NCBI RefSeq assembly: GCF_001748285.1
Contig: NZ_BDGT01000011.1
Coordinates: 1-64,000 of the forward strand
Origin: Thermogemmatispora onikobensis
GTDB taxonomy: Bacteria; Chloroflexota; Ktedonobacteria; Ktedonobacterales; Ktedonobacteraceae
Reading direction: 5' to 3'
DNA: 64,000 bases
Shown: in pieces, positions 4,499-8,597 of the stretch
How the letters are laid out: every line of letters starts with the position of its first letter
Position numbering within the stretch: the first letter of the stretch is position 1
Position numbers and translations under genes: made by a program
The notes under the pieces: model-generated
Told to the model about the DNA's origin: nothing
The model's database searches: none
What the model saw: only the letters and a program-made list of their open reading frames with translations

Positions 4499-5584
4499 TT
4501 AAGAAGCGCCTCCCGGGCGTGTTCGTGGTAGCAGCTCATCTAGAGTGCGCTTGATGGCCGCCAGCGCCAGCTCGATCTGGGGGCGCTCGATGCCATAGTG
4601 GGTCACAGCGCGCAGCAGACCGTCATCCATACTACTCAGCAGCACACCCTCGTTTTGGAGGCGGGCCCGAAACTCGGCGCAGCGTTCCTCGGGCAGTATG
4701 CGCTCACCATCGTGCAGGCGGAAGATCACCATATTGGTCTGCACATGCGGAGCAGCCAGCCTTATCTGGGGCAACTCGGCCAGGCCCTCGGCCAGCAGAC
4801 GGGCATGGGCATGGTCCTCTGCCAGGCGCTCTACCATCTGCTCCAGGGCCACAATGCCAGCAGCCGCCAGTACCCCGGCCTGACGCAGTCCCCCGCCAAG
4901 TACCTTACGTACCCAGCGCGCCCGGCTAATAAAGTCGCGACTGCCGACCAGCAGCGAACCGACGGGAGCGCTCAGCCCCTTCGAGAGGCAAAACATGACC
5001 GAGTCAGCTTCGGCAACAAGCTGACTGACAGGCACGCCCAGGGCGACCGCTGCATTAAAGATCCGCGCCCCATCGACATGCACTTTTAGCCCCCGGGCAT
5101 GAGCCAGGCGACAGAGAGTTGTCATCTGCTCCAGCGAGAGCGCGCAGCCGCCGCAGCGATTGTGTGTATTCTCCAGGCACAGGAGAAGAGTCGGTGGCGT
5201 ATGCTCATCGCTATCGTCAGTAATGGCCGCCGCCAGCTGTTCCTGATCGAAGCCTCCATCCGGCTGGTTTGATACCACCCAGAAGTGGATACCGCCCAGG
5301 CGGGCCGCACCTCCGCCCTCATAGCGGTAAATATGGGCCTGATTGCCCACGATCACCGCCCCACCGCGTGGCACATGTGTCAGCAGCGCCGTTGTATTCC
5401 CCATTGTCCCGCTGGTCACGAAGAGCGCCGCCTCCTTCCCCAGGCGCTCCGCCGCCAGCTCCTGCAAGCGATTCACCGTTGGATCTTCGCCGTAGACATC
5501 ATCGCCCACCTCTGCGCGATACATGGCCTCCCGCATCGCCGGAGTCGGCTGCGTCACTGTATCGCTGCGCAGGTCGATTACCAT
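4499..5584 (-). CDS. ltaE: low-specificity L-threonine aldolase
   Basis: A PLP enzyme splitting L-threonine or L-allo-threonine to glycine and acetaldehyde. The start is ATG 5584 (361 residues) behind AAAGGAGAGAACAAGG; a longer open frame to 5863 is non-homologous. The N-terminus [19 protein letters not shown] is diagnostic. His83 (stacks on PLP), Asp171 in VHVDGAR and the PLP lysine Lys202 in [12 protein letters not shown] are all present. Length is close to the family norm of 340-360. It lies downstream of the pseudokinase-receptor gene on the same strand with a 262-base gap, so probably a separate transcript. Confidence 0.93.
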
Positions 5585-5846
5585 CGTACCTTGTTCTCTC
5601 CTTTCTGTTCTGCTCTCCTGCTCTCGCTGCACCAGTCGGGGCTGTGCTGGAGGATACTTTTTCAGTATATCACACAGGCCGTCCCGCAGCAGGGCGGGAG
5701 GAGAGAGGGAGAGGAGCGAGCAGCCTGCCGGGGCTGGCGCAGGCTCCATGCGAACCGTGCTGTGCCGATCGGCATGGAGCCTGTAGTAAGGATAACGCAG
5801 AGGAAGCGCCGGCTGAGAGGGCCGGCGGGCTATGGGTAGAAATGGA

Positions 5847-8597
5847 TCAATGTAGTGCCCCAAAGAGGCGGATCATCGCAAAGGTAGAGGCGCCGGTGGT
5901 CTGGTCCTGGCGGACCTGCAGCATCACCAGAGCCTTATCGCCCGGGTTCCCGAGCGAATCGAAGCTAATGCGCCCGCTGGCGCCCTGGAAGGCTGGCAGC
6001 GGACCGTTCCCGAGGGCATCGAGCATGGAGCGCACATTAGCGCCAGTGAGCGGACCCTTGACATAGGAGGCCGCGCGAGCAATCACGCGCACCGCATCGT
6101 AGGTCATGATCGCTTTCTGATCGGGGGGCGGTGCGTTATTGACGCTCTCCTTCTGGTTTTGGAAAATGCCGGCCCAGTCTGTAAAGAGCGTTGGCTGTTC
6201 CAGGGATGGCACATTATTCCACTCGCTCGGATCGGCATAGGCCAGAACGTAAATGCGCTGCATATCTTCGGGGAAAGAGCGCGCCAGGAAGGCGTCCTCG
6301 CTCTCTCCCTCGCCCAGAAGCAGGCGGGTAGCAGCCGAGGGGCCGACCAGCACCTTCAAATTGGCCAGGGCCGTATTGGCTGGCTGGGCGCGTGACAGCA
6401 GGCCAATCTCGTGAGCCAGGCGCACTGCATCGACATCGGTACCGGCCAGAAAGATCACGTCGGCCTGGTGAGCCAGCGCGTCGCTGATCGCCGTACTGTA
6501 GCTCTCCACAGGCGTTGTCTGCGTCACGAAGGTATCGCTCGCGCTGGTAACCACATGACCAGCCAGCATCTGGACGCGGGCTACGAAGGCATTAGCCAGT
6601 GCCACACTGGCGGCATCCGTTGGCGAGCGCATCACCAGGATCGCGTTGGCGTGCAACTGCTGCAGCGCGAACTCAGCGAGGGCATCGCCCTGGACATTAT
6701 AGGGCGGGCTGATGCGGAAGAAATAGGGATTGCCCACCAGGTTCACATCGGGCGCCAGTTGCGACACCAGTGGCACATGGGCCGAGGCGATCAGGTCGCG
6801 CACGGCCTGGGTCTGGCTGCTGGAAGGCCAGCCAACCACACCAATGATATGGTCCAGATTATCCGCTCGCGTCACGCGATTGACAATATCGTGGGCCACT
6901 TCGGTCACACTGGCCTGATCGGGAGGTGAGCCGGCGATCAAAATACGCAGCTGATAATTATGAGGCAGCCAGGCGAACTCATTGATCTCATACTGAGCCA
7001 CATAGGCGGCCTGGAGCATCGAGCGAGTGGCCGCCAGGGACTGAGGATCATTAGCGTTGAAGCTCAGGCCCACCACGATCGTCACGAACGGCTGGCCATT
7101 CTGCTCGATCAGCAGATTCTGGCTGTAGATGAGGGCCTCAGCGTCGGTAGGATCGAGTGCGATGGCGGAGCTGAGGGCGCTGGCCGCCGTATCCAGATCG
7201 CCCGTCTGTAGAGCGCGAGCGGCGGCCTGCTTTTGAGAGACGTCCTTACGCCCGGCGTAGGAGTCCAGCACAAAGCGCCCATCGCTGACAGCGATGCCGC
7301 GTGTTTGCCAGCTCTGCTGTTCATGGTTCAACTCCTGCTGCCAGGCAGCGGCGGCCTGACGGGCCTGCTGGGCCGTAGCGGTCTGCTGAGCCAGGGCGGT
7401 AGCGGTCGCGGCGGGGTCGGGGGCCCCCGTTGAGAGCGGAGCGCGCTGGGCGGCCACGATAATGCCTCCCACCAGTAGAGCAAAGACCACGAGCATGACC
7501 GCGGCGAAAGTCAAGGTAGAGCGGCGCGCACCGGAGCGAGGCCGAGACCGGGCGCGGCCAGGTGGCAGCGCTCCTGTCGAAGGCGCGGGGCGGGCCTCCT
7601 CGCTGCCTCGCCGCGACGAAGCTGCGGCAATTGCTGCCAGTTCCTGAAGCATCTGGGCCGGGCGCAGATAGCGCTGAGCGGCGGCCACGCGCAGACCGCG
7701 TGTCAGAATAGCCTCCATACGAGCTGAAACCTGGGGGTTCAGCCGACGGATAGGTGGATAGAAAAAGGCCATATGTTGGCGCGGATCGTAGGTCGTCAGG
7801 GCATAGTAGAGGGTGGCCGCAATCGCATACAGGTCGGTGCGTGTATCGGTTACGCCGTGAAACTGCTCGGGGGCGAAAAAGCCGGCAATGGCCTTGCCCT
7901 GCATCTCTGGGGGGAGTCGAGGAGGAAAGAGCGGCATCAGAATCAGCGAGACCTGATGGCCATCGGGGCTGATGATCACGGTCTCTGGGCTGATGGCACC
8001 GTGAACCAGCGGCGGCTCCTGCGAGGCCAGAACCTGCACCATCTCGCAAAGCTGTCGCCCGTACTCAGCGACCAGGCGCTCGGGTAAAGGCTCCCCCTGC
8101 TGCTCGACAAGCTGAGCCAGGCTCTGCCCCTCGGGATGCTGCAGCACAATGTAGTAGCAGCCGCGCTCGCTGAACATGTCAATCAAGTGAGGAAAGCCCC
8201 GGTGCTGACCCAGTTCGGCCAGCCGCTGGGCGGTCAGGTGGAGCTCTTGCTCCAGCTGGGCTGCCTTCTCGGCGGTGGGAATCACCTCGCGAATCAGTAC
8301 CAGCCGACTCACTGACTGCGCATCTCTGGCCAGCCAGGCCCTCCCCTGATCATATTGGCTACGCGGGAGAGGCAACTCCCCAACGATGCGATAACGTCCC
8401 TCGCGCAGAACATCGCCGCGCAGCACCGGGCGCGTGGCAACCAGGCTGAGCGGCCTCGACGCCGTGGTGACCAGCTCGCGGCTTTCCTGACCGAAAGATA
8501 GCGGGCGACTCCCTCTGGCGGGTAGGCGGCCATAGCCACAGCGTGGACACCCCCCATTCAGTGGTTCCCCTTCAAAGTGGCATTGAGGACAGCGCAT
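5847..8597 (-). CDS. zinc-ribbon / pseudokinase / transmembrane / ABC-type substrate-binding fusion receptor
   Basis: 916 residues, ATG 8597 behind GGAAGGAAGACC. Domains in order: a zinc ribbon (Cys3, Cys6, Cys17, Cys20); a protein-kinase fold at about 66-325; a basic linker; one membrane helix at about 361-382; a Gln/Ala-rich coil; a TPR-like stretch at about 455-490; and from about 505 to the end a Leu/Ile/Val-binding-protein-like domain. The kinase looks dead: no glycine loop, Arg103 where the ATP lysine belongs, His199-Gly-Ala instead of His-Arg-Asp, and no Asp-Phe-Gly; the APE motif (242-244) survives. The likely topology is pseudokinase inside and ligand-binding domain outside, i.e. a sensor. 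Ligand and partner are unknown. Confidence 0.85.

Follow-up and report, generated by a model that had tools for sequence, protein, structure and literature searches.

The gene at positions 5847-8597 of a 64,000-nucleotide stretch of DNA (the window) from Thermogemmatispora onikobensis, a heat-loving soil bacterium, encodes a 916-residue member of a receptor-kinase family. It represents a pseudokinase branch of this family, and its pocket is changed in Thermogemmatispora. Along the chain, a zinc ribbon is followed by a pseudokinase, a membrane helix, a long helix, TPR-like helices and a type I periplasmic-binding protein (PBP) domain. With a probability of roughly two in three, the protein is a membrane-anchored, catalytically dead receptor or co-receptor that works without catalysis and signals via protein contacts. 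Intact and dead versions of one receptor family occur within this single genome, and a genus with an altered sensing pocket can be set against sister genera that have kept theirs, which amounts to a natural comparison. Such comparisons bear on the passage of a signal across the membrane by way of a dead kinase, and on the conditions under which a protein under continued selection can lose catalysis and ligand binding.

Domain layout and predicted folds

The initial annotation had described a zinc ribbon, one membrane helix and a PBP-like domain around a kinase-like domain devoid of the ATP-binding lysine, the catalytic aspartate and the Asp-Phe-Gly motif, and all of these features are borne out by the sequence (Table 1); the stalk helix (395-433), the TPR-like segment (453-500), Arg125 and the altered pocket go beyond it. 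The four cysteines of the zinc ribbon (3, 6, 17 and 20) are invariant among 10 aligned orthologues, and in the intact paralogue (L073:4418) the Pfam zinc-ribbon models score slightly under their cut-offs. The Pfam ANF_receptor model matches residues 528-893 above its cut-off (E 7e-11). The Pkinase match stays under its own (21.6 bits vs 31.7) and ranks among the four weakest of the 73 Pkinase-matching stretches in the whole genome. NCBIfam kinase equivalogs, including the LanL and PknB-type models, score far below cut-off and were set aside as reflecting the kinase fold only. No guanylyl cyclase domain was found by Pfam in the 916 residues. The 36 residues preceding the membrane helix hold nine arginines and two acidic residues, a charge pattern that puts the kinase part on the cytosolic side. 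Beyond the membrane, a clear heptad pattern was sought in the stalk helix and none was seen; a conserved SDGR motif (438-441) lies ahead of the TPR-like segment, which is itself conserved in the family.

Table 1. Features of the 916-codon gene and its product, with window coordinates
Feature	Coordinates	Strand	Basis or comparison
Whole gene	5847..8597	-	916 codons, ATG start
Zinc ribbon, residues 3-20	8538..8591	-	CxxC...CxxC, Cys 3, 6, 17, 20
Pseudokinase domain, ~residues 61-326	7620..8417	-	AlphaFold2, Foldseek, dN/dS
Arg103 at ATP-binding beta-3 Lys position	8289..8291	-	Lys in 35/35 intact paralogues; orthologues R 9, Y 2, H 1
Arg125 at alpha-C Glu position	8223..8225	-	Glu in 35/35 intact paralogues; Arg in 12/12 orthologues
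Pseudo-catalytic loop HGAISPET (199-206), replacing HRDIKPAN	7980..8003	-	12-orthologue comparison
LMPLF, residues 220-224, at DFG position (Leu-Met-Pro 220-222)	7926..7940	-	DFG in 35/35 intact paralogues
APE motif (242-244), retained	7866..7874	-	Glu244 in 12/12 orthologues
Arg-rich flexible linker, residues 327-360	7518..7619	-	pLDDT <50 over 328-362
Single transmembrane helix, residues 361-384	7446..7517	-	Hydropathy maximum 2.9 at 364; helix in model
Long stalk helix, residues 395-433	7299..7415	-	AlphaFold2 model
TPR-like helices, residues 453-500	7098..7241	-	Pfam TPR_14 E 5.5e-4 (below cut-off); model
Type I periplasmic-binding (Venus flytrap) domain, residues 504-912	5862..7088	-	ANF_receptor, Foldseek
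Ser593 = LivJ Ser79, sole one of five contact positions kept	6819..6821	-	LivJ alignment
Pro616 at LivJ Thr102 position	6750..6752	-	Ser/Thr in all intact-kinase relatives
Ala663 at LivJ Tyr150 position	6609..6611	-	Tyr in all intact-kinase relatives
Thr720 at LivJ Tyr202 position	6438..6440	-	LivJ alignment
Pro753 at LivJ Glu226 position	6339..6341	-	Asp of GGD motif in all intact-kinase relatives

Fold prediction, proposed earlier as a check on these assignments, returned both a kinase fold and a type I PBP fold. The whole protein, modelled by AlphaFold2 from an alignment of 54 family members, reached a mean pLDDT of 85.3 and a pTM of 0.61, with low confidence for the linkers and for how the domains are arranged overall. 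Modelled alone, the kinase part forms a bilobe (pLDDT 90.5, pTM 0.91) for which the best Foldseek match is Staphylococcus aureus PknB (4eqm, E 4e-15), with TM-scores to PknB of about 0.7. The predicted outer domain (504-912) resembles LivJ (4gnr, E 2e-18, target TM-score 0.80) and LivK (3td9, E 3e-18, target TM-score 0.83) across its entire length, followed in the ranking by the ectodomains of calcium-sensing (CaSR) and metabotropic glutamate (mGlu) receptors.

Loss of catalytic residues under continued selection

The kinase domain was compared, residue by residue, between 35 intact kinase-PBP paralogues and 12 orthologues from six genera of the Ktedonobacteraceae. All five catalytic residues (beta-3 Lys, alpha-C Glu, HRD Asp, loop Asn and DFG Asp) are replaced in the protein under study and in 12/12 orthologues. 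HRD, Lys203 and Asn206 are each present in every one of the intact paralogues; the orthologues instead share HGAIS without exception (H-G-A 12/12, Ser203 12/12), with Thr206 in 11 of the 12 and Ala once. At the DFG position, residue 220 is Leu, Phe, Tyr or His and never Asp, while Pro222 occurs in 11/12 and Phe224 in all. Residues of the C-lobe fold (Glu244, Asp255 and Arg309) are retained in 12/12. No displaced catalytic motif was seen among the 12 orthologues, nor did an invariant replacement Lys or Asp stand out in the alignments.

The arginines at active-site positions 103 and 125 could be taken to mean that the fold now catalyses a different ATP-dependent transfer, as in SelO or SidJ, and switches of this kind are known among pseudokinases (PMC12599244). 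However, no metal-binding Asp or Asn is left, the glycine loop has disappeared and three orthologues have Tyr or His at residue 103; we regard such a repurposed enzyme as improbable.

Selection acts strongly on what is left. Comparison of five Thermogemmatispora orthologues gives dN/dS values of 0.04-0.09 for the kinase domain, 0.07-0.12 for the PBP domain and about 0.1 or below for the protein as a whole; every full-length orthologue recovered has an open reading frame. Since the replacements are shared across genera and dN/dS is low, the protein is maintained rather than decaying. The loss of kinase and pocket residues is what a non-functional, decaying paralogue might be expected to display, but with selection of this strength, open frames and a replacement motif fixed in six genera, decay is hardly a credible account.

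The linker alone is less constrained (dN/dS 0.2-0.5 among the five Thermogemmatispora orthologues, the least constrained part of the protein), and this bears on a further alternative, in which active kinases would phosphorylate the linker or tail and the phosphorylated protein would recruit an FHA-type protein. A precedent is provided by mycobacterial MviN (PMC12599244), and a membrane pseudokinase with a disordered linker rich in Ser/Thr and Arg, in a genome that encodes many kinases, would suit such a scaffold. Yet the segment on which it would depend is the least conserved, and its Ser/Thr positions are not clearly common to different genera; a phosphorylated scaffold of this type seems rather unlikely to us. 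A protein that acts by contact is most likely, given the combination of absent catalytic residues, a conserved fold and strong selection.

A receptor family with intact and dead members and an altered pocket

We define here a Ktedonobacterial kinase-PBP receptor family by the order of its parts: a zinc ribbon comes first, then a kinase fold, a membrane helix, an SDG/TPR-like segment and finally a PBP domain, all of which the 916-residue protein possesses in this order. A search of 47 Ktedonobacteria genomes and of the DNA around the matches recovered at least 71 distinct genes in which a kinase domain and a PBP domain occur together, and family members were matched in 29/29 family genomes. Kinase domains could be scored in 70 of these genes, 35 being intact and 35 degraded under a simple Lys/HRD/DFG rule, although a few of those called degraded, for example L083:5073 (HRD, DFS), may judging by their residues still be active. 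The architecture had been flagged as unusual for a sensor; the domain order is as described, but the protein is not a one-off, given that receptors of the kinase-PBP type occur widely across Ktedonobacteria and that half of the scored ones are intact. In the genomes examined from other Chloroflexota, the closest kinases are intact and have no such PBP domain. A plasmid search with the intact paralogue returned no record covering 80% of it. No description of PBP-fused kinases was found in the literature searched; kinase/substrate-binding fusions presumably carry a RefSeq product name in actinobacteria.

Five more Thermogemmatispora genomes each have a one-to-one orthologue, which in one case is a fragment, and the nearest named relative is a Thermogemmatispora carboxidivorans protein with 97% identity. 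The clade that contains the protein (support 100/99) spans six genera including Thermogemmatispora, Ktedonobacter, Ktedonosporobacter and Dictyobacter. In a tree with other kinases added, it falls within a wider clade marked by the HG motif (SH-aLRT 100), together with a short membrane pseudokinase (C20) of the same genome, PBP-pseudokinases from two further families and one other group. The C20 pseudokinase (L074:9178-10296:+), conserved in Thermogemmatispora, comprises 373 residues with a zinc ribbon and a terminal membrane helix and has no outer domain. The genome also carries three tandem kinase-PBP genes in graded decay (L073, C61:10417-19421), one intact, one with HCD/GFG and one with HGD and no DFG; in sibling species the middle gene has HRD/DFS. 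The decayed members of this array group with the intact branch and not with the HG-motif clade. We infer from the trees at least two separate losses of kinase activity in the family, the exact number being unsure because of long branches.

The neighbourhood of the gene is less informative. No conserved neighbour was found beyond the genus, as neighbours differ between genera. In one genome (G020), two other kinase-like genes lie beside the orthologue. A pseudokinase-like gene (L063:6039-8063:+; HGN, without DFG) that carries a fused PBP_like_2 domain lies next to the orthologue. A downstream threonine aldolase-like gene (4502-5863 ORF), found in this place only in Thermogemmatispora, was discarded as a functional clue; between the two genes lies an inverted repeat (window:5740-5783) whose 12-nt arms match perfectly around a 20-nt loop, and promoter and terminator scans were uninformative.

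The pocket of the outer domain was mapped by alignment to E. coli LivJ, with a sequence and contact-residue numbers that we take to be correct; the contact residues landed on those numbers, and the solved LivJ structure 4gnr aligns to the family in the same way. Four of the five contact positions are replaced (Table 1), and these replacements are common to all full-length Thermogemmatispora orthologues, while orthologues from other genera retain the pocket residues. For complete domains scored at positions 79, 102, 150 and 226, the pocket is kept in 34/34 intact-kinase proteins and in 13/13 without a kinase; among dead-kinase proteins 18 keep it and 16 do not. Pocket loss therefore occurs only with dead kinases, but the 16 proteins fall in about two lineages, so that the association reflects few events and is possibly a coincidence. 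At the level of sequence, the pocket change alongside a dead kinase in Thermogemmatispora is a new observation. The initial annotation had also spoken of a nutrient-type receptor; the term is doubtful for the Thermogemmatispora protein because the canonical amino-acid-binding positions are replaced there, though kept in orthologues of other genera.

The outer module is not confined to kinases. The SDG/TPR-like/PBP module is also joined to other cytosolic parts, namely HTH_3 and NB-ARC in L071:9128-12256:-, whose PBP domain falls inside the clade of the protein under study, and TPR repeats in L087, and it looks like a portable sensor. The first of these genes adjoins a nonribosomal peptide synthetase gene. 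Proteins of ~700 residues (L109-L113) combine a weak zf-HC2-like N-terminal segment with the PBP module.

Proposed mode of action and comparison with known systems

In the mechanism that we favour, a LivJ-type Venus flytrap outside the cell is linked through the TPR-like helices, the long helix and the membrane helix to the cytosolic pseudokinase. The state of the outer domain, set by a ligand or by a partner receptor, would be passed to the pseudokinase, which would dock on a different protein of the cytosol or control it allosterically; the likeliest target is one of the many active Ser/Thr kinases of the cell. Candidate partners include about 70 Pkinase-type stretches in the genome and its kinase-PBP paralogues (three in the C61 array, one intact), and transmission of occupancy from the outer domain to such a candidate, as the initial annotation had suggested, is possible. 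Against it, no partner gene adjoins the gene at 5847-8597.

A specific form of this explanation, which we put forward only tentatively, is that the Thermogemmatispora protein binds no small ligand but pairs with intact kinase-PBP receptors and tunes their kinase output, in parallel with GABA-B2 and ErbB3 in animals. Neither the kinase nor the pocket signature survives, although purifying selection on both domains is strong, and an intact paralogue resides in the same genome. Conversely, a pocket without the LivJ-type residues may still bind some other ligand, and orthologues in other genera retain the pocket. Moreover, in other families of the order, the PBP-domain matches all lie in dead-kinase proteins with no intact PBP-kinase paralogue (among the matches listed), so that an intact partner cannot be demonstrated as a general requirement. 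Should this tentative form hold, a receptor dead at both ends would have been kept by selection as a dedicated co-receptor for active receptor kinases, and the animal-type split into sensing and allosteric subunits would also have evolved in bacteria.

Among known systems close to the protein are the intact Ktedonobacterial receptors (for example C61:10417-13281 of the same genome, L073:4418-7282). At ~30% identity they agree with it in the order of their domains and in having a zinc ribbon, a membrane helix, an SDG motif, TPR-like helices and a PBP fold, but they retain the pocket residues for amino acids as well as Lys, HRD, Asn and DFG. With active Hanks-type Ser/Thr kinases it has the predicted bilobal fold in common but none of the five catalytic residues, and with LivJ/LivK (4gnr, 3td9) the type I PBP fold, although here fused to a membrane pseudokinase and with four of five contact positions replaced. 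The functions of bacterial pseudokinases are largely unknown; EssB/YukC and MviN demonstrate that they are able to act as scaffolds (PMC12599244). The families ActPs1-3, GLW, CP1, DLHK and DYD likewise have degraded catalytic motifs, often beside a membrane helix, and the review that describes them makes no mention of periplasmic-binding domains or Chloroflexota (PMC12599244). Compared by description, HGAIS and the alpha-C Arg are not among the hallmarks consulted for these families (PMC12599244). ActPs2 is marked by beta-3 Lys to Arg, HRD Asp to Asn and a large activation-loop insertion (PMC12599244); Arg103 agrees, but the HRD Asp is Ala here and there is no large insertion. In GLW pseudokinases GLW replaces HRD, where our protein has HGA, and ActPs1 and ActPs3 are marked by family-specific constraints and deletions.

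In the GlnH-GlnX-PknG system of Actinobacteria, a periplasmic binding protein also reports to a Ser/Thr kinase, but through three separate proteins, with an active kinase and a defined Asp/Glu ligand (PMC9769921). Like the 916-residue protein, the natriuretic-peptide receptors GC-A and GC-B combine an outer domain of the Pfam ANF_receptor type and a single membrane helix with a pseudokinase in the cytosol; they differ in their reverse chain order, guanylyl cyclase domain and non-bacterial origin. The pseudokinase of receptor guanylyl cyclases in general is thought to act as a scaffold and to relay movement of the outer domain (PMC10400071). By analogy, the protein may work like the natriuretic-peptide receptor family, its closest functional parallel, of which it is not a member.
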